From a bacterium (GTDB lineage: Bacteria > Planctomycetota > Planctomycetia > Pirellulales > Pirellulaceae): a DNA stretch of 55,362 nucleotides. The notes below the pieces were generated by a model that did no database searches, was not told where the DNA came from, and saw only the letters and a list, made by a program, of their open reading frames with translations. The translations under genes and the position numbers were made by a program. This document shows positions 2,453 to 20,510 of the stretch, piece after piece. Where the stretch lies: NCBI GenBank assembly GCA_024743355.1, contig JANSWS010000006.1, positions 1 through 55,362 on the forward strand, given 5' to 3'. How positions within the stretch are numbered: position 1 is the first letter of the stretch; each line of letters starts with the position of its first letter.

Positions 2453-2967
2453 ATGTCCGCACGCCCAACGGGCCAAGTCCACTATGACAACCAAGGCCGA
2501 GTCGTACTCGTCAGCGGTGGAGCCAATGGAATTGGTCGCAGCGTCTGCGAGCTGTTTTATCGCTCGGGAGCACATGTTGTGTGCATGGATGTCGATCAAG
2601 AGAAAGCCAGAGGGTTGCCGCCTGAGGTGGAGTTCTTCGCGGGAGATACCTCGATCGAAGACCACTGTCAAAAGGCGGTAGCACACGCCGTGAGCACATT
2701 CGGCGGACTCGATGTACTCGTTAACAACGCGGCCATTCAGCCGCCCGATTCCTATGTCCGCTTGGATCTACTGACAGCCGAAGCCTGGAATCGAATGCTG
2801 GAAGTCAACCTGTCCGGCTACACCTATCTTGGCAAGCACGCAGCGCGGATCATGCGGCAACAGCAACATGGCGTCATCATCAATCTCGCCAGTGGCCAAG
2901 CTCACCGTACAGCCCGGCAAGTCCCCTGTTACGGACCCATCAAAGCTGCAAATGTCTTGCAGGCTAT
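2453..2967 (+). pseudogene. SDR-family oxidoreductase, 5' part, interrupted by integrated element
   Basis: Starts at ATG 2453 with AAGGAA about 8 nt upstream. It encodes the N-terminal Rossmann half of a classical short-chain dehydrogenase: nucleotide-binding SGGANGIG, NNAAIQ, catalytic Ser147, Tyr160 and Lys164 (YGPIK). After residue 172 the sequence switches to element DNA and the frame runs 18 foreign codons to a stop at 3020-3022. The remaining 95 codons are at 8729-9014. Joining 2453-2967 to 8729-9014 gives 801 nt, an intact in-frame 266-aa SDR. The truncated product lacks the substrate loop and the last Rossmann strands, so it should be inactive unless the element excises. Confidence 0.9.
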
Positions 2968-4530
2968 ACCAGACAACTTGCCATCTTTTCGCAGTACGAT
3001 GGATCCGCCTTCGAACGTGTAGCGGTGCTTTTTCCCCTGCTTTTGCTGCGATACGTCAACTTCAACATGGTCGATAACGGCCCGCATACAGGCCGCTAGA
3101 TGCTCGCTGTCAGCTTCCTGCCATACTTCGACCAGATTATCGAGAAGATCGCTAGCCTCGCTTAGACGGTGCTCCAGTGCGTCTATCTCGCGGTCCACGT
3201 CCACGCTTGCGAGCCGGATAGACTGATCGAGTTGTTCCAGCTCGGCTTTCATTTCGATGGCGTGCTTGCTCAAGTCTGGGACCAGGGAGTCATCCACGTC
3301 CAGCAGTCGTTTGGTAGCCTTCTCATATTTTTCTGCGAGTTTGTCACGCTTGGCCTGTAGCGATTTGGTGTCGGCTTTCTTCTGTTGCTGCTTCAATTCA
3401 GCGCGAGCCTCGCTGATTATCTGACTCCTGTTTTCATCGCTCAACTTTTCGGCAAGTGCGGTGAAAATTGCCTGTAACAGATCGGATTCCCGAATGCCAA
3501 AACTACCACAGTCGTGATGGCGTTCCACGGATCGGCATCGGTAGCGCTTGATGCCCGTTTTAACTGCGGTGTGGCCGTAGAGCCCATTGCCGCATCTGGC
3601 ACAGCGTACCAGCCCACTGAGGACATATATGCCGTGGCTCGTGGGAGCTGTTTTGCGTTTATTGGCCTCTCGCATTATCTGGACCTCGTTAAACAAGATC
3701 TGGTCTACAATGGGCTCGTGGGCATCTTCCACACGCACCTGATCTGCAACAGTGGATTGCCCAGCCCCGCTAGCAGGCACAATGCCGTTGTTCCGCCATG
3801 CGTGCCGCTTGGCTCGGCTTTTCCGGTTCCAGCATATCATGCCCGTATAGGTCGGGTTGCGTAATATGTCGCCCACGGCCTGCGGGCCGATACGAATCCC
3901 AAAACGCTTTAGCAAGCCGATAGCGATGGGCCGTAGTGTTTTGCCGCTTGCGTATTGGTCGAATATCCACCGCACCGCGGCTGCTTCGTCATTGGTGCGA
4001 AGTTTCGAGTCCTCACCAATGGAATAGCCCAGCGGTGGACTCCCGCCAACCCATAAACCTTTAGCGGCCTTGTCAGCACCACCACGGACCACGGCACGAC
4101 TCATTTTTAAGACGAACCCGTTGTTCGATTCGGATTCGATAGCCGTCATGATGATGCCCGTTATCGACGTCCAATCCAGCGGGCCTTTGTCCATCGTCAC
4201 CAATGTGATACCGGCGTCTTTTAGCGGGCCAAGCTCACGGAATGTATCGAACGGATTGGAGCGAGTAACGCGGCTTTGATCCCACACTAAAACGTGCGTA
4301 AAGTCTCCGGCGGTTGCCGCGTCTATCAGTTGTCTGAATCCAATGCGGCTTGCTGCGGTATCCACGCCGCTAATCCCCGCATCCACAAATTCGCCAACTA
4401 CGCAGTAGCCATTCTTGGCCGCGTATTCATACAGATGCTTTTTTTGGCTGCCGATGCTGGCTTCTTGCTGGTCCGTAGACTTGCGGCAATAGATCGCAGC
4501 ACGGATGGTGCCTGCTGTTGTGATTCGCAT
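2929..4530 (-). CDS. Large serine recombinase (integrase)
   Basis: A 533-aa site-specific recombinase that should catalyse integration and, with a directionality factor, excision. The N-terminal resolvase domain (about residues 9-140) has the catalytic serine in AAIYCRKST (Ser18). A Recombinase domain follows (about 155-285), then a zinc ribbon with Cys310, Cys313, Cys332 and Cys341, then a long coiled coil (about 374-465). This is the standard large serine integrase layout. I chose ATG 4530 because GGGAG lies 8 nt upstream; an in-frame GTG at 4584 lacks a ribosome site. The last seven residues (FAALMGP) are read from host SDR DNA beyond the attL core. In the excised circle the shared residue Thr526 would be followed by GQVAVIRFRVAA and a stop. 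Confidence 0.95.
   Translation of the reverse strand: MRITTAGTIRAAIYCRKSTDQQEASIGSQKKHLYEYAAKNGYCVVGEFVDAGISGVDTAASRIGFRQLIDAATAGDFTHVLVWDQSRVTRSNPFDTFRELGPLKDAGITLVTMDKGPLDWTSITGIIMTAIESESNNGFVLKMSRAVVRGGADKAAKGLWVGGSPPLGYSIGEDSKLRTNDEAAAVRWIFDQYASGKTLRPIAIGLLKRFGIRIGPQAVGDILRNPTYTGMICWNRKSRAKRHAWRNNGIVPASGAGQSTVADQVRVEDAHEPIVDQILFNEVQIMREANKRKTAPTSHGIYVLSGLVRCARCGNGLYGHTAVKTGIKRYRCRSVERHHDCGSFGIRESDLLQAIFTALAEKLSDENRSQIISEARAELKQQQKKADTKSLQAKRDKLAEKYEKATKRLLDVDDSLVPDLSKHAIEMKAELEQLDQSIRLASVDVDREIDALEHRLSEASDLLDNLVEVWQEADSEHLAACMRAVIDHVEVDVSQQKQGKKHRYTFEGGSIVLRKDGKLSGIACKTFAALMGP
2954..2967. other. attL core (left attachment site)
   Basis: GTCTTGCAGGCTAT is identical to 8715-8728. The left flank continues the SDR coding sequence; the right flank (ACCAGACAACTTGCC) belongs to the element. 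Identity of the two copies and exact restoration of the SDR frame mark this as the crossover region. Confidence 0.88.
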
Positions 4531-4803
4531 AGATACAACTCCCGTCAGTTGTCCCGTGGAATTGAAAGTGGGGCAAGCAAGCACGGGTGTCTCGCGGTTC
4601 GGCTGGCCGGCCTAGCCCTCTGGAAAGAATAGTCGGTTTCGCAATCTGGCGATAGATCGCATCTGGCTTCGGTTCCTTCGCGGGCTTACTACCATCCGCA
4701 GCTCTGCGGTTAGTTGTATTTTCCCAAAGTCTAACCGTAGACTCTGCCACCCCAGCACTTCCGCCACTCGCTGCTGAGTCCAGTCTGGGCTGGCATCTCT
4801 CAC
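4427..4803 (-). pseudogene. Frameshifted helix-turn-helix (ParB-like or Xre-like) gene
   Basis: One frame (GTG at 4803) reads RDASPDWTQQRVAEVLG. The neighbouring frame continues VAESTVRLWENTTNRR. Joined, they form a clear helix-turn-helix of the type that begins ParB-like or phage adaptor proteins. The switch falls at a GGGG run near 4750; one extra G would join the two frames. It could be a real frameshift mutation, a sequencing error or a programmed slip. The start is unclear because the upstream sequence is the repeat array. The second frame stays open into the integrase start. As it stands no intact protein is encoded. Confidence 0.5.
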
Positions 4804-5002
4804 CCACGCGCGCGAGGACTAACCATCTGCTGCGAAAAGGGTAACACGCTGTTACCCTTCTCACCCACGCGCGCGAGGACTAACCTTGTCTAAAGGTTCC
4901 TCAGATTTCTGAGTAACCTTCTCACCCACGCGCGCGAGGACTAACCTTAGAAAGGTTAGTGTTACTAACCTTTTCATCCCTCTCACCCACGCGCGCGAGG
5001 AC
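4798..5002. repeat. Array of four 22-27-bp repeats at exact 61-bp period with hairpin spacers
   Basis: Near-identical copies of TCTCACCCACGCGCGCGAGG (plus ACTAACC in three copies) start at 4798, 4859, 4920 and 4981. The 34-bp spacers differ in sequence but each is a perfect or near-perfect hairpin: 4837-4859 (9-bp stem, 5-nt loop), 4893-4920 (AAGGTT and CTCAG arms), 4951-4973 (10-bp stem, 3-nt loop). A diverged fifth copy is at 5217-5243. The geometry resembles CRISPR, but the palindromic spacers and the lack of cas genes argue against that. Possible roles are a partition or origin site, an attenuator, or a regulator-binding array. Confidence 0.85.
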
Positions 5003-5216
5003 CAGGCAGCTCCCAGCCGATAACAATCTGATGCTTCGGCTGCCATTGCTGGAAATTTGGGTGCTCAGATATGGGCACCCAGCGTCCCGCTACTTCCTGT
5101 GCCGTCGGTTATCTGCGGGATGACGGCGATGTATCGCCGACCAGCGTGTCCTGAGTGTCAGTCACGTATGGTCACACTAACCGCTCAAATGTTGTCTACG
5201 TAGACAACTTTCGATC
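5003..5216. other. Gene-free, dyad-rich stretch between repeats 4 and 5
   Basis: No credible gene is seen. The stretch holds hairpins at 5058-5081 (7-bp stem TGGGTGC), 5124-5139 (CGGCGAT arms, 2-nt loop) and a perfect 18-bp palindrome at 5191-5208 (GTTGTCTACGTAGACAAC). With the 61-bp array to its left and the fifth repeat to its right, this is a roughly 450-bp block of repeats and dyads, which suggests a replication, partition or regulatory locus. Confidence 0.6.
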
Positions 5217-5243
5217 TCTCACCCACGCGTGAGAGGACTAACC
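5217..5243. repeat. Fifth, diverged copy of the array repeat
   Basis: TCTCACCCACGCG followed by TGAGAGGACTAACC. It matches the four array copies except that CGCG is replaced by TGAG, which makes the repeat itself palindromic (CTCTCAC/GTGAGAG). As with the other copies, a hairpin (5191-5208) sits just to its left. Confidence 0.75.
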
Positions 5244-5251
5244 TCCACCAA

Positions 5252-5282
5252 CAAAAACGGCCCGCAGATCAACGCGGGCCGT
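5252..5282 (-). terminator. Rho-independent terminator
   Basis: On the minus strand the 9-bp stem ACGGCCCGC/GCGGGCCGT (5257-5265 and 5274-5282, 8-nt loop) is followed by a run of T. It lies 39 nt beyond the stop of the 65-aa ORF and should end the minus-strand transcript coming from the right part of the element. Confidence 0.85.
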
Positions 5283-5320
5283 AGGGTATGACTATCGAGT
5301 CGGATTAGTCGGTGCGTGCG

Positions 5321-5518
5321 TTAAATCGCGTCCTCGTGCTCGATCTTCAATGGTGGCTCAACTCCCTGCGGGAATGGGATCAGCACCGCGTTATTCTCAT
5401 TCGGATCCCATAACAGCCATCGGTCTATAAATTCTTCGCGGCTGAGCCCCTCCCATAGCAGGAATGCCGCACCGGTTTGCAGGTCGTGGGCGTAGATGTC
5501 CCATAGTGGTTTGCTCAT
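5321..5518 (-). CDS. Small acidic hypothetical protein (65 aa)
   Basis: ATG 5518 has GAGGAG at ideal spacing. The protein is acidic and rich in Trp, Asp and Glu (start MSKPLWDIYAHDLQTG; WDPNENNAVLIPFPQG near the middle), with no signal peptide or membrane segment. I do not recognise a family. It is the last gene before a strong terminator. Upstream lies the 103-codon ORF ending at 5549, so both probably share a transcript. The good ribosome site and terminator make it a real gene despite its size. Confidence 0.75.
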   Translation of the reverse strand: MSKPLWDIYAHDLQTGAAFLLWEGLSREEFIDRWLLWDPNENNAVLIPFPQGVEPPLKIEHEDAI

Positions 5519-5548
5519 TGGTAACTCCTCGCATTGAATGAAACAGGT

Positions 5549-5860
5549 TCAGTGAAGAGTAAGCCCCACCACAACCGGCGAAAAGACGGGCTTGGAAGTC
5601 GCTCGGGTGATGCCTCGGGTGATAGCTTGCTGATGCCCAACAGCGTGCTGCCGGCGTTCGAGTCCTAGCGGGGTGAGATTATTTTGAGAATCTCGCTGCA
5701 ACCGCTGCTCGATGTAGAGACGAGAGGTGCCTCGCTCCGGTTGTCTGCCAAGCGTTACATTGTCACTCTTGCCAGAATCAGGTTTTCCACCTGTGTGCTG
5801 ATTACCACGGTCGCCGCCATGCTTGCCCTTCGGCTTCGGCGTGAGGCACGCACGGCACAG
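5549..5860 (-). CDS. Putative DNA-binding/adaptor protein with GNQHTGG motif; start unclear
   Basis: The frame reads GKHGGDRGNQHTGGKP, then DNVTLGRQPERGTSRLYIEQ, then LERRQHAVGHQQAITRGI. This resembles phage- and plasmid-type proteins that open with a KHGGDRGNQ-like motif and carry a helical segment ending in an AAI.AG-like element; the match is from memory. No ATG, GTG or TTG is available in frame: the first codon after an in-frame TAG (5870-5872) region that could serve is CTG 5860, four bases after a G-rich AGGGGGG. The same frame upstream of that TAG starts at ATG 5926 with 18 codons (MAEVLNLSELIILEFLLG). Either CTG initiation, TAG readthrough, or an inactivating stop is possible. Confidence 0.5.
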   Translation of the reverse strand: MCRACLTPKPKGKHGGDRGNQHTGGKPDSGKSDNVTLGRQPERGTSRLYIEQRLQRDSQNNLTPLGLERRQHAVGHQQAITRGITRATSKPVFSPVVVGLTLH

Positions 5861-5875
5861 ACCGCCCCCCTACCC

Positions 5876-6000
5876 CAAGAGAAATTCTAAAATTATCAGC
5901 TCTGACAAATTTAGAACTTCTGCCATTTTGACCCCACGTCCAAGGGAGATTCTAAAAGTCCAAGCTCTTGGATTTTTAGAACTTCTGCCAATTTGACCCC
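5876..6000. repeat. Two 60-bp repeat units with covarying dyads
   Basis: Units 5876-5935 and 5941-6000 share flanks (AGAACTTCTGCCA.TTTGACCCC and CAAG.GA.ATTCTAAAA). Each has a central palindrome with 15-bp arms and a CT loop: 5885-5916 (13/15 paired) and 5950-5981 (14/15 paired). The inner arm bases differ between units but stay paired, so structure rather than sequence is kept. Read on the minus strand, each unit also holds GGGGTCAAA followed by a start codon and a similar short peptide (MAEVLNLSEL.. and LAEVLKIQEL..). Confidence 0.75.
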
Positions 6001-6003
6001 TGG

Positions 6004-6195
6004 CTATTCTGAAACTTTATCGCCGGATTCGTCTCTCATTTTCCGCCAGTTCCGCAGCCTGCACCGCGGCCCGCAGAATCGCTTGCTTATCCGCTCCCGG
6101 GTAAACGCAGCACCGCAGACTTCGCAATACCCACGGCTTGCCTCAACTCGCATTCGGAGCAGTTTTGCTTCTCGAATCAACGATTTGAGCTTCAT
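6004..6195 (-). CDS. Small zinc-ribbon protein (63 aa)
   Basis: A basic protein with four cysteines in a CxxC...CxxxC pattern (Cys24, Cys27, Cys41, Cys45), within YCEVCGAAF and RFCGPRCRLRNWRK. Such small zinc-binding proteins are common on phages and mobile elements and usually bind nucleic acid; no specific role can be given. ATG 6195 is the first start; the ribosome site is weak. Its stop lies just before the twin 60-bp repeats, which may form part of its 3' region. Confidence 0.65.
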   Translation of the reverse strand: MKLKSLIREAKLLRMRVEASRGYCEVCGAAFTRERISKRFCGPRCRLRNWRKMRDESGDKVSE

Positions 6196-6289
6196 AAAAA
6201 CGACGGACAGTATCTAAAGTTTCCTGGACGCTTGCAAACCGCAATAAGACGGGGTAGGGTCAAGGGGGAACCAGACGTCCGTGCGGGGT

Positions 6290-6553
6290 CTACCTAACAA
6301 TCTCGAATTGCAGATTCGGTTGTCGGCCTTCTCGGATCGCTCTGGAGATTTCCTGCAAGCCTTTAATGACCTGCTCTTGCCGTTCCGCTGTTTTCTCAAC
6401 AGCCTTAGCTGTGCGTTCTGCTGGCCGGTTCTGGCTGCTGTCGCCGCGTGTCAACAGTCTGCCCTGTGTGGCCTGGAGATCCGGCGAGGGCTGCCGCAGC
6501 CGCTGTTCTAATCGCTCGGCTTCTAAAAGCCCCTAGAACGCTCTCTGTCGCAT
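6290..6553 (-). pseudogene. Charged coiled-coil ORF interrupted by an in-frame TAG
   Basis: ATG 6553 reads MRQRAF, then TAG at 6533-6535, then 80 open codons in the same frame: GLLEAERLEQRLRQPSPDL and later AERTAKAVEKTAERQEQVIK, QEISRAIREGRQPNLQFEIV. The region after the TAG has strong amphipathic helix character and looks coding. The same frame is open upstream of the ATG back to about 6672 (IEAEDSSTTHANRPEGIPSP). So a longer protein may have existed, now broken by one amber codon. Re-initiation at an internal TTG is possible. Confidence 0.45.
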
Positions 6554-6658
6554 TTTGTTGATATCTGGACTCGGAATACCTTCCGGCCTGTTTGCGTGCG
6601 TTGTGGATGAATCCTCAGCCTCTATGGGGTGCGGTGCGGTTATTAACGTCGAGCTTGT

Positions 6659-6723
6659 TTCTATGTGAGGTTTCTATGAAGAGGTTCTATAAGAGGGTTC
6701 TATTAAGAGTTTCTATATTAGTG
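6659..6723. repeat. Five 13-bp iterons (TTCTAT family)
   Basis: TTCTAT starts at 6659, 6672, 6685, 6698 and 6711, an exact 13-bp period; the consensus is roughly TTCTATRWRAGRG. The repeats follow the 3' end of the Rep-like gene and adjoin a second iteron set. Regularly spaced iterons beside a winged-helix Rep candidate suggest a replication origin or a Rep autoregulatory site. Confidence 0.75.
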
Positions 6724-6807
6724 AGCGGGTATGCGTGCAGGCATGCGTGCGGGTATGCGTGCAATGTGTGAGCGATATGCGTGCAAGATGCGTGCAAAGT
6801 GTGAGCG
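6721..6807. repeat. Second iteron set (ATGCGTGC x5, GTGAGCG x3)
   Basis: ATGCGTGC occurs at 6731, 6743, 6755, 6777 and 6788. GTGAGCG occurs at 6721, 6768 and 6801 and brackets the groups. The set ends two bases before the stop of the Rep-like gene. Together with the 13-bp iterons it forms a compact candidate origin of about 150 bp. Confidence 0.7.
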
Positions 6808-6808
6808 G

Positions 6809-7519
6809 TCATTCCAGCCCTTTCAATTGTGCTAAAACCCGTTCCCGCAGTTCGTCCGTTTTGCTTTTCTGGCGCTGTTTCGCTTTCTCGACGGCTCGGG
6901 TCACAATGGCTTCGTCTAGCTCAGCCTGGCTTATGCGGTGGCTGTAGAAATAGTTCCGGCCATCCACGGAAGCACGGACAAATAGCCCCCGGCTTTCAAG
7001 GGCTGCCACTGTCCGCGACATGCGGAATCGGCTCATCAGATTACCGCTCTCGATTTCCGGTACCTGATCGGGCCTGGAGTACCCCAACGACAGAGCGTTT
7101 AAATACGACATTCTGAGGCACTTATAGCGGCTCGTCCCGATGCCCGCATAAACGCCGCACAGCACCGCGAACAGCTTCCACGGAAGCCGCTGGTGGAACA
7201 CGTCCCACAAAATATCAGAGCGAATGCGTACCAGTGTTTCCCCGCCCTGCTGGGGCAGTTTTGGTGGATCTCGCAGAATGTAGTTCGGTCCGCTTGAATA
7301 CTTCACGCTGAGCAATTTGGCCGCTCGCTCTAGGTGCTCGATTTTCAGCCTGTCATCGCTGCTTAATTCCCAGATCGAACTAGCCGCGGTCATAACACAA
7401 TGGTCAATTATCAGGTTGACGCGGCTCTTGGCTTCTTCTGGTGTCACCAAAGAAATCGGAATCTTCAGGTGCAATCCCTTGATTGGGAACTGGAAAAAAG
7501 TCTCTGATTTGCTTACCAT
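6809..7519 (-). CDS. Rep-like winged-helix protein (236 aa)
   Basis: A soluble protein with a C-terminal segment that looks like a winged helix (MSRFRMSRTVAALESRGLFV, then GRNYFYSHRISQAELDEAIV), ending in a basic helical tail (EKAKQRQKSKTDELRERVLA). I do not recognise the exact family. The position directly before two iteron sets suggests a plasmid-type replication initiator or an iteron-binding regulator; this is inference. ATG 7519 is the first start; its ribosome site is weak. A terminator at 7640-7666 separates it from the upstream genes, so it probably has its own promoter in 7520-7639. Confidence 0.6.
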   Translation of the reverse strand: MVSKSETFFQFPIKGLHLKIPISLVTPEEAKSRVNLIIDHCVMTAASSIWELSSDDRLKIEHLERAAKLLSVKYSSGPNYILRDPPKLPQQGGETLVRIRSDILWDVFHQRLPWKLFAVLCGVYAGIGTSRYKCLRMSYLNALSLGYSRPDQVPEIESGNLMSRFRMSRTVAALESRGLFVRASVDGRNYFYSHRISQAELDEAIVTRAVEKAKQRQKSKTDELRERVLAQLKGLE

Positions 7520-7629
7520 GTGGGTATCATGACCTGTCTAAGGCATCATGCCTGATGCGGCTCGCCTGAAAAATTGGTTTGCGGTTGTCGTCCCGCAAGT
7601 GATGTATCGCCGTTCCTGTGCATGGAACA

Positions 7630-7666
7630 AAAGAAGGGGGCCGAGTCAGCCATGTGCTAACTCGGC
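7630..7666 (-). terminator. Probable rho-independent terminator
   Basis: Minus-strand hairpin GCCGAGT/ACTCGGC (7640-7646 and 7660-7666) is followed by CCCCCTTCTTTTG. It lies 20 nt beyond the stop of the 120-aa ORF and should end the right-hand minus-strand operon (47-aa, excisionase-like, 120-aa genes). Confidence 0.7.
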
Positions 7667-7686
7667 TCTCTTCGTTTCTGGTGGTG

Positions 7687-8049
7687 CTACTGCTCGCCAA
7701 AATCGTGGTACTCACGGAATTTCTGCCGGAACACTTGCTTAGGGTCGGCTTTATTGGGAATCAACTGGTCATTTAGCCATTGCTCCGCGCTTGTAAAGAC
7801 CCTGCTGGCTTTCACGTAATTGCACTCAAGCGTAAACGATCCGAGATCAAGCGAGACCGCCTCGACGGTAGCCAGAGCGCCGTTGATCCGAACGAATGCT
7901 GGATCGCAAGCCTGCCCTATAAGTTCTTGGTTCGCCCTGTCGATCTCTTCCCGTGGACAGAGATCGAGCTCAACGTTCTCGCCATCCTCATTGAAGGCAT
8001 ACGGCTTGCCGTCCTTACCTTCGGGAACGTAGGTAATAAGCTCATCCAT
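7687..8049 (-). CDS. Hypothetical acidic protein (120 aa)
   Basis: ATG 8049 has GGAGAG about 9 nt upstream. The protein starts MDELITYVPEGKDGKPYAFN and is acidic and soluble. I do not recognise a family. It is the third gene of the operon downstream of the excisionase-like gene (gap 50 nt) and is followed by a terminator. Small accessory genes next to the excision factor often help control element maintenance, but nothing in the sequence proves a role here. Confidence 0.75.
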   Translation of the reverse strand: MDELITYVPEGKDGKPYAFNEDGENVELDLCPREEIDRANQELIGQACDPAFVRINGALATVEAVSLDLGSFTLECNYVKASRVFTSAEQWLNDQLIPNKADPKQVFRQKFREYHDFGEQ

Positions 8050-8099
8050 CTTCGCAATCTCTCCAAAAAACAACCATTTGCACCTGGAAGCCGGTGCCG

Positions 8100-8309
8100 C
8101 TATTTACTGTTCAGACTGTCAGCATTGGTCATCAACCATGCTTCAACATCACGCTTTAGGAATCGTCGTTGCACTTTGACATTGCCGGCGACGATGCAGC
8201 GTGGTAATTGGCCTGCTTTTAACAATTGCCTGAATCGGTAGTCCGTCAGTGCGTTATCGGCCCGAAACTCGCCGGCCGTGATCCAGAGCCGCTTATGTTT
8301 GGGTGTCAT
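8100..8309 (-). CDS. Excisionase-like helix-turn-helix protein (69 aa)
   Basis: ATG 8309 has GAGGAGG 10 nt upstream. The short basic protein (MTPKHKRLWITAGEF, FRQLLKAGQLPRCIVAGNVK, FLKRDVEAWL) fits the small MerR/AlpA-type HTH fold of excisionases and phage-type DNA-binding proteins, where a recognition helix is followed by a wing and a KRDVEAWL-type end. It is a good candidate for the recombination directionality factor of the serine integrase. Its start overlaps the stop of the 47-aa ORF (GTATGA), so translation is probably coupled. Confidence 0.75.
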   Translation of the reverse strand: MTPKHKRLWITAGEFRADNALTDYRFRQLLKAGQLPRCIVAGNVKVQRRFLKRDVEAWLMTNADSLNSK

Positions 8310-8449
8310 ACGGCGGTTGCCTCCTCTGGTGTACGTGATTGCTTGGCAGATGCTCGCTTTTCTGCGATGTGCAACAGAAGCCGCGCGATAGCACGGCAAT
8401 GGGTGTCGTCGAGTTGCTTGTCCAGCTCAACTTTTGGTTCGGTTGCCAC
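8306..8449 (-). CDS. Small ORF translationally coupled to the excisionase-like gene (47 aa)
   Basis: GTG 8449 is preceded by GGACGGAG at about 8-nt spacing. The product is a hydrophilic helical peptide (VATEPKVELDKQLDD, then RAIARLLLHIAEKRASAKQS). Its TGA (8306-8308) overlaps the ATG of the downstream gene. Good ribosome site, helical composition and coupling support a real gene. No family is recognised. Confidence 0.6.
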   Translation of the reverse strand: MATEPKVELDKQLDDTHCRAIARLLLHIAEKRASAKQSRTPEEATAV

Positions 8450-8490
8450 TGAATTAACTCCGTCCTGAGAGACAACGCCGATATAGAATT

Positions 8491-8659
8491 CCGGTTGAAA
8501 ACCGGTTGCGTTGCGGTAGAGCTATTGGCACCTGCCTGCGGTTCGCAGACTAACAGAAGATTTGGCTACCAAGAAGGACTCGAAAAAAGTTGTCGTAAGT
8601 GATTGATTGCCAACCACTTACGAAAACGCGATTTTCGCTCTGCGGCTCTTTTGAGAGCC
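8491..8659. promoter_or_regulatory. Hairpin cluster in the upstream region of the excisionase operon
   Basis: The 265 nt between the 47-aa ORF and attR hold no gene but several dyads: 8491-8505 (CCGGTT arms), 8594-8622 (CGTAAGTG arms, 12-bp stem with one mismatch), 8621-8637 (CGAAAA arms) and 8644-8659 (GGCTCT arms). This region must contain the promoter of the right-hand operon; the dyads could be operators for the HTH protein. In the circular form it lies directly downstream of the integrase gene. Confidence 0.5.
8582..8622 (-). terminator. Terminator candidate for the integrase in the circular form
   Basis: On the minus strand the hairpin 8622-8594 is followed within five bases by TTTTTT (8588-8583). 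No minus-strand gene ends here in the integrated state. In the excised circle, the integrase frame would run through attP, stop at TAG 8677-8675, and meet this terminator about 53 nt later. Confidence 0.55.
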
Positions 8660-8714
8660 CGATTGGGAATTTGACTATGCGGCAACCCGAAAACGGATAA
8701 CGGCAACTTGTCCA

Positions 8715-8728
8715 GTCTTGCAGGCTAT
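8715..8728. other. attR core (right attachment site)
   Basis: GTCTTGCAGGCTAT, identical to attL. The left flank GGCAACTTGTCCA is element DNA; the right flank resumes the SDR codons (GCA GTG GGG CGT in the forward sequence, part of ATG CAG TGG GGC). Element-side flanks of attL and attR are inverted copies of each other (12 of 15 bases). Confidence 0.88.
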
Positions 8729-9014
8729 GCAGTGGGGCGTCGAATACGCCCGCGACGGAATCCGTGTCGTGTCTGTGTCCCCCGGGGCGATCCTGACTCC
8801 CATGGTTGAAGCCAGCCTGGCGGCTCAAGGAGGACCCAAGGAGCTGGCGAATCGACATCCGATCGGGCGTCTTGGACAGCCGCAGGAAGTCGCCGCCGCC
8901 ATTCTTTGGCTAGCCAGCCCAGACGCATCCTTCGTGACCGCGACCGATCTTGAGGTAGACGGAGGGCTGGGAGCTTTCGGCGCCTTTGCCGATCCATTCT
9001 CACCCGAGCCTTAA
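8729..9014 (+). pseudogene. SDR-family oxidoreductase, 3' part
   Basis: Continues the SDR frame after the element: QWGVEYARDGIRVVSVSPGA, ILTPMVEA, GRLGQPQEVAAAILWLASPD, FVTATDLEVDGGLGAFGAFA. These are the substrate loop and the C-terminal strand typical of classical SDRs (SPGAI.TPM; DGG). It has no promoter, start codon or cofactor-binding half of its own, so it is a fragment in the integrated state. Confidence 0.9.
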
Positions 9015-19679: not shown

Positions 19680-20510
19680 TTACTCGAGCACAATTCTGGC
19701 ACCTAACTCCTTGAGTCCCTCCAGCTGACTCTGCGCTGAATCCTTCAGTGGATTACCCTTTAAGTAGAGCCTCCAAAAAGGAGCAAATCTCCGCTGCTCG
19801 TCAGCTTTGGCCATCTGCAGCAAGGGCTCCAGATCGTTCAATTGACAGTCTTGCAAAATCACCGTTTTCAATTCGGTCAGCGGCTTTAGAAAACTTAGAT
19901 CCTTGAGCTTGCACTGGCTTAAGTCTAGCGAGCTCAACCACTTCAACTTTCCGATCGGCCCGAAATCCTCAACTGGATTGTTGGCCAAGTACAAAGTCCA
20001 GACTTTAGGAAGCTGTTCCACCACCTCGATCGACTGGATCTGATTATCCGACAGATACAACGAGCGCATGTTGCTCATCTTGGCCAGAGGAGCAATATCG
20101 CTGATCTTGTTCCGCGACAATTCCAAATACTGCACACGATCAAGATCTTTGAGTGGCTCGACAGACTGGATCTGATTGCCGGCAAGATTGATGGACTGCA
20201 ACAGTTTCAGACCCGACAGCTGCGACAAGTCTTCAATCTGATTGTTTTCAAGATCAATCTCTTGCACCGCCACACAGTGCTCAAGCCCCGCCAAGCTTTT
20301 GATCTCCAGACCTTTGCCGTGAACTTGCGAGATGTTCTTGACATCCTCGGCAGTCAGCGGCTCTTCGTTGTAACGCTTGGCAAACACCTCTTTTCTGACT
20401 GCAGATTCCAAGCCCTTGTCAGGAAACAGGTCTTCAGCCGCCAGTGGTGTGGCACTCGAAATCCCGACGCATACGAGCAGAAGAAATTGGCAGGTGAATG
20501 CTATTTTCAT
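19680..20510 (-). CDS. Secreted leucine-rich-repeat protein
   Basis: 276 aa. ATG 20510 follows GGGA and begins a clear signal peptide (MKIAFTCQFLLLVCVGISSA). After a short cap, about eight 22-residue LRRs of the internalin type follow: LEHCVAVQEIDLENNQIEDL, LKLLQSINLAGNQIQSVEPL, DRVQYLELSRNKISDIAPL, SNMRSLYLSDNQIQSIE and so on. Such repeats bind proteins; secreted LRR proteins with this repeat length are frequent in planctomycetes. No catalytic domain or anchor is visible. Confidence 0.9.
   Translation of the reverse strand: MKIAFTCQFLLLVCVGISSATPLAAEDLFPDKGLESAVRKEVFAKRYNEEPLTAEDVKNISQVHGKGLEIKSLAGLEHCVAVQEIDLENNQIEDLSQLSGLKLLQSINLAGNQIQSVEPLKDLDRVQYLELSRNKISDIAPLAKMSNMRSLYLSDNQIQSIEVVEQLPKVWTLYLANNPVEDFGPIGKLKWLSSLDLSQCKLKDLSFLKPLTELKTVILQDCQLNDLEPLLQMAKADEQRRFAPFWRLYLKGNPLKDSAQSQLEGLKELGARIVLE

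Follow-up and report, generated by a model that had tools for sequence, protein, structure and literature searches.

A serine-integrase element that splits a short-chain dehydrogenase/reductase gene in a Pirellula-like bacterium and whose precise loss would restore it

When a mobile element divides a host gene and could leave it intact again, is the element a switch used by the cell, or an insertion that serves the element? The question is raised by the 55,362-nt stretch of DNA analyzed here (the window; contig C559 of a draft genome that totals 8.31 Mb over 823 contigs), in which the two halves of a short-chain dehydrogenase/reductase (SDR) gene flank a 5761-bp element carrying a large serine integrase. 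The initial annotation of this stretch had proposed that precise loss of the element would restore the SDR gene, and had left undecided whether the insertion is regulated or simply inactivating. The first proposal is well supported by the sequence. On the second, the insertion is very probably sporadic, element-serving and precisely reversible, and not a switch run by the host. The features on which the argument turns are the following (att, attachment site).

2453-2967, plus strand: 5' half of the SDR gene including the left core (515 nt), with orthologue matches
2929-4530, minus strand: large serine integrase of 533 aa, counted from an ATG at 4530 (Pfam PF00239, PF07508 and PF13408)
2954-2967, plus strand: attL core GTCTTGCAGGCTAT, predicted crossover dinucleotide AG at 2961-2962
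8715-8728, plus strand: attR core GTCTTGCAGGCTAT, predicted crossover dinucleotide AG at 8722-8723
8729-9014, plus strand: 3' half of the SDR gene (286 nt), with orthologue matches

The split gene, the integrase and the attachment sites

Excision of the 5761 bp by sequence joins 515 and 286 nt into one exact open SDR frame of 801 nt (266 codons, the sole stop codon being terminal); the 14-bp repeat, the coordinates and this arithmetic, as given in the initial annotation, were all correct on recount. The joined protein matches adh_short_C2 (Pfam, E 5.4e-53) and dihydroanticapsin 7-dehydrogenase (5itv, E 2e-36), with YGPIK of the window protein aligned to YNASK. We take YGPIK to be the YxxxK motif of the SDR, and the junction lies a few residues past it, where the insertion had been placed. 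A search of the whole genome with the joined protein recovered it as two pieces at 99% (query 1-173 and 167-266). With the element in place, the reading frame of the 5' half continues into it and meets a stop codon ending at 3022, so the product of this half lacks the final 94 residues; this truncated piece would almost certainly be inactive. The element was screened for a replacement of the lost SDR half, and no SDR homology was found in it beyond the core.

The integrase has Resolvase, Recombinase and zinc-ribbon domains, all three above the Pfam cut-offs, and matches PHROG integrase family 95 (E 5.5e-91). It contains the motif YCRKST, whose serine is presumably the catalytic one, and its frame is open upstream from a GTG at 4584. 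The closest solved structure by sequence is the SPbeta integrase YokA (PDB 9dxh, 9dxd; E 3e-10, residues 141-505), which comes from a large prophage and is only weakly similar to the window integrase.

The 14-mer GTCTTGCAGGCTAT is exact at 2954-2967 and 8715-8728; no third place in the window matches it with up to two mismatches, and the 8.31-Mb genome holds no further exact copy. Although at least two matches at up to two mismatches occurred in 5 of 100 shuffled windows, the actual copies are both exact, and each adjoins one half of the split SDR. In the reconstructed attP, the best dyad centre is the AG of the core (GTCTTGC-AG-GCTAT), with 16 of 22 positions pairing. This score is matched by 3 of 55,086 window positions outside the att regions, and when the best of 13 adjacent centres is taken, by 39 of 55,301 window places. 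A chance repeat was ruled out on two grounds: no other exact copy of the 14-mer exists in the genome, and the attP dyad is centred in the 14-mer. Crossover is predicted to occur, probably, at the central AG of the core.

The final 7 codons of the integrase gene and its stop codon lie beyond the left core, in SDR DNA. Both here and in a second element, found in genome G025 and described below, the core sits within the last codons of the integrase gene, so host DNA supplies the stop codon after integration. After IACKT, the tail of the window integrase reads FAALMGP when integrated and GQVAVIRFRVAA in the circle; after CEVR, that of the G025 integrase reads S when integrated and TEQISECVMIPFSVAA in the circle. 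Since the tails of different integrases seem unrelated by eye, we expect the exchange to have little effect on integrase function. On serine integrase genes whose 3' end overlaps attP, a limited literature search turned up nothing, which is not proof that such a case is unpublished.

The history that we propose is as follows. An integrative element of 5.76 kb would have entered a Pirellula-like chromosome by means of its own large serine integrase, which would have carried out recombination between attP and an attB located within the SDR gene, just past YxxxK and with crossover probably at the central AG, leaving the SDR in two pieces. The element is presumed able to excise: helped by a directionality factor, the reverse reaction would yield the SDR gene exactly, along with a circle, because serine recombination is conservative.

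Relatives of the gene and of the element

Intact copies of the gene, which the initial annotation had suggested looking for, were found in many relatives (here family and congener denote the groups as defined by the search tool). SDR matches at E 1e-38 or better occurred in 74 of 241 family genomes, the own genome included. In all 73 others, which belong to other species, the match spanned the insertion site; the element was present in 1 of the 74. One stop codon lies within the matched stretch in 5 of the 73, and four of the spanning matches are partial or gapped (G031, G182, G262 and G284). The apparent insertion at the same SDR site in G031 (L036, about 2773-2871) proved to be a run of N with duplicated edges, and split SDRs in G182, G262 and G284 were ruled out, their partial matches lying at contig ends and still spanning the site.

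Among congeners the SDR was matched in 9 of 14; the remaining five gave no match even when the threshold was E 1e-30 and all candidates were scored, and two of these five genomes are 96% and 99% complete. Within flanks of about 1.5 kb, the left neighbour of the SDR was common to 1 of 16 orthologue loci (G005) and the right neighbour to none of the 16, and in wider stretches of four relatives, compared by eye, no shared setting of the gene was seen. Conservation was assessed against 37 distinct orthologues, all with a fetched locus (36 loci from the congener and family searches, plus L069; eight duplicates, the partial L071, the window locus L009, the gapped L020 and the paralogues L021, L022, L072 and L073 were left out). 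Of the 88 columns at which at least 95% of the other sequences agree, the window SDR deviates at 2 and the orthologues at 0 to 5, so that, judged by its sequence, the window SDR is not decayed. Either a recent insertion or a gene restored now and then would account for this.

For the integrase, a search of 392 genomes of the phylum at E 1e-60, with three candidates scored per genome, returned only the own genome. Scans sensitive to close relatives only found no such relative of the integrase in genome contigs, nor of the integrase or a 236-aa protein of the element in viral contigs; the 236-aa protein was also unmatched in plasmids. Seventeen phage records match the integrase, all at less than 60% identity. 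Among 147 relatives, with at most nine candidates per genome, integrase matches at E 1e-60 were obtained from three genomes besides the own one (33-34% identity).

Relatives of the 236-aa protein occur in three of the 147 as well, and G025 has relatives of both proteins (integrase 33%, 236-aa protein 35%). The G025 element (L031 5077-14068, 8980 bp) splits an SGNH-hydrolase-like gene, so named by eye; it is flanked by the 12-bp core GTGAAGTCCGAA, and joining the flanks restores the frame. An AG is the best dyad centre in its attB (13 of 22), and in its attP the AG likewise scores 13 of 22 and takes the lead only when the half-width is 25. Of 97 other genomes, 46 have homologues of the joined protein, and only G025 was matched as two pieces of one copy. 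Because the G025 element encodes a phage capsid protein (PF05065, E 1.8e-26) and a ParB-like protein, it may be phage-derived.

In G051 (L033 8387-8490), the stop codon of a serine integrase abuts a truncated gene, dprA-like by eye, after SGLSLG; the other half of that gene was not found with the motifs tried. It may represent this layout for a third time, and counts as a partial case. A candidate att site of the relative in G068, a 12-bp match 5.7 kb beyond the 3' end of the integrase gene and among other genes, was not accepted. In G061 (L035 4575-7675), a relative of the 236-aa protein lies in a stretch with an integrase that is tyrosine-type by eye, so the 236-aa module may travel with either class of integrase.

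Other content of the element

The remaining features of the element are listed below. Besides the integrase, the open reading frames (ORFs) tested, among them a further one of 54 aa, are small and all on the minus strand.

4553-4621, minus strand: int-alpA Rfam match upstream of the integrase, sub-threshold (24.6 against a cut-off of 35.8 bits, E 0.087)
4795-5260 (4795-5040 and 5214-5260), no strand assigned: five-copy repeat array; four copies fit ACCCACGCGYGMGAGGACTAACC, and the fourth in order departs at its end
5321-5518, minus strand: 65-aa ORF, no family match
5875-6000, no strand assigned: two tandem 61-nt copies, 80% identical
6004-6195, minus strand: 63-aa ORF, weak PHROG matches (the best of unknown function, then HNH endonuclease), no Pfam match
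6809-7519, minus strand: the 236-aa protein, no family match; related proteins occur in three other genomes, the one in G025 at 35%
7687-8073, minus strand: 128-aa protein, no family match and no relative
8100-8399, minus strand: HTH_17-like small protein (PF12728 E 0.001, below the curated cut-off; phrog_66 E 0.007)

No capsid, packaging, relaxase, conjugation or cargo gene was found in seven ORFs of the element (Pfam, PHROGs) or in the four largest (NCBIfam). From its family matches, the HTH_17-like protein is a candidate excisionase or directionality factor. The sub-threshold int-alpA match stands in the same element as this gene. By eye only, the 236-aa protein looks like a replication initiator; its single-sequence structure model (mean predicted local distance difference test score, pLDDT, 41) was unusable and was not used. 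For the 128-aa protein, only the own genome was matched among the 147 relatives searched.

The first four copies of the array follow at an exact period of 61 bp, with three hairpin-forming spacers in between whose arms are unrelated to one another. On the plus strand, three array units fold somewhat better than shuffles (z -1.9 to -2.4); this does not hold for the unit that follows the fourth copy (z +1.8). When 98 genomes were scanned for the array pattern, the four matches obtained were all in the own element, with none in the 97 others. Each of the tandem copies at 5875-6000 also forms a hairpin (z -2.1 and -4.1), and because the differing arms of the two copies still pair, a hairpin under selection is suggested. 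Just downstream of the 236-aa protein, at 6725-6807, are short direct repeats around ATGCGTGCA, which could be iterons. In the G025 element, a run of TGTCCAAGC repeats follows the homologue of the 236-aa protein.

Insertion, switch, remnant or artefact

The initial annotation had likened the element to skin and to the nifD element. The nifD element uses an unrelated tyrosine recombinase; skin and yin are nearer parallels. Like the window element, skin in sigK has a serine recombinase and splits a coding gene that excision restores, and its 12-bp shared motifs with inverted repeats are comparable to the window core and dyad; its excision, however, is developmentally controlled with a known auxiliary factor (PMC5025042). 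The resemblance to yin in yabG extends to a serine recombinase beside the 5' half of the split gene, a 14-bp flanking repeat, restoration of the gene on excision and occurrence in a single strain (PMC10747680). In contrast to the window element, yin is prophage-like, its target is sporulation-associated, and its excision was observed and depends on growth phase (PMC10747680). The target in the window is a patchily distributed SDR, and excision is predicted from sequence alone. In an extensive survey of large serine recombinases, targets were sorted by the host genes disrupted on insertion (PMC10083194). Compared with the elements in the sections of that survey available to us, the one in the window is only 5.76 kb long and has no capsid, relaxase or recognised cargo that was found, and SDR genes are not named there among the targets (PMC10083194).

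If condition- or cell-type-dependent excision turned the SDR on, as skin does for sigK and yin for yabG, the exact in-frame restoration and the missing decay would fit. Elements within genes are described as often or usually reconstituting them (PMC12884075, PMC10111431), and the exceptions, such as this element without a replacement for the lost SDR half, are taken usually to mean regulated gene integrity (PMC10111431). Yet the missing decay is equally explained by recent insertion, and disrupted host genes are stated targets in the survey (PMC10083194). The element occurs in 1 of 74 SDR-bearing genomes and is not kept at the site across species; five of the 14 congeners, including two genomes with a completeness of 96% or more, gave no SDR match; and with a neighbour common to 1 of 16 orthologue loci, no conserved context was found. 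Rarity alone is not decisive, because yin, from a single strain and with a 14-bp repeat, is growth-phase dependent (PMC10747680). Taken together, the comparison favours a sporadic, element-serving insertion on the point that the initial annotation had left undecided, and a host-run switch of this kind is unlikely.

There is a small but real chance that the element inserted as proposed and can no longer excise, the SDR being a pseudogene in the making, which is compatible with sporadic insertion. Besides the integrase, the element encodes only small proteins, mostly without family, and no clear directionality factor; against such a remnant, the integrase is open with its three domains, the attP dyad is intact, and both SDR halves are open and conserved. 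That unrelated pieces were joined at a short repeat during assembly is very improbable indeed, even for a draft of 823 contigs: a chance 14-bp join is not expected to centre an attP dyad in the core, nor to bring the halves of a single gene together in the right order and reading frame, and a similar layout occurs in G025, whose genome is a single contig. Quite unlikely, too, is a broader proposal, that of a family of small planctomycete elements with related serine integrases and with attP in the last codons of the integrase gene, in which integration would break a host enzyme gene and give the integrase a host-encoded tail and stop codon, excision would reverse both, and the element would reversibly switch the activity of the SDR and perhaps that of its own integrase; no prior description of such a family was found in a limited literature search.

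The preferred reading, a sporadic and reversible serine-integrase insertion, draws on what can be read directly in the DNA, namely the att cores, the attP dyad, the three integrase domains, the in-frame join and the uninterrupted orthologues; these bore out the proposal that precise loss would restore the SDR. Several observations weigh against it. The window is on a draft contig and its junctions are known from the assembly alone; the searches described above gave neither an empty site from the same species or strain nor a close integrase relative elsewhere. The exact 14-bp core is present in none of the 37 orthologues (best 12 of 14; L003 matches at 10 of 14). The attB dyad is weak: it scores highest at the same AG at half-widths 22 and 25, with values of 10 and 11 that are common by chance (a best-of-13 score of 10 at half-width 22 is reached at 19,778 of 55,301 window places), and at half-width 18 GT scores 9 against 8 for AG, so the att evidence rests on attP. 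In the G025 attP, a CG centre ties with AG at half-widths 18 and 22. Finally, the accounts of gene reconstitution cited above speak against the insertion being merely sporadic (PMC12884075, PMC10111431).

As the evidence stands, this is a clean but ordinary insertion of an already known type, a serine-integrase element in a coding gene; nothing observed shows the cell using it as a switch, and that reading is not supported. The locus yields an attP/attB pair and a crossover dinucleotide, both predicted, together with a compact integrase, in a bacterial group for which genetic tools are few. The G025 element adds a second example of a like layout. Gene-restoring elements are known from spore-formers and cyanobacteria, and if excision of the window element were regulated, they would be extended to planctomycetes.

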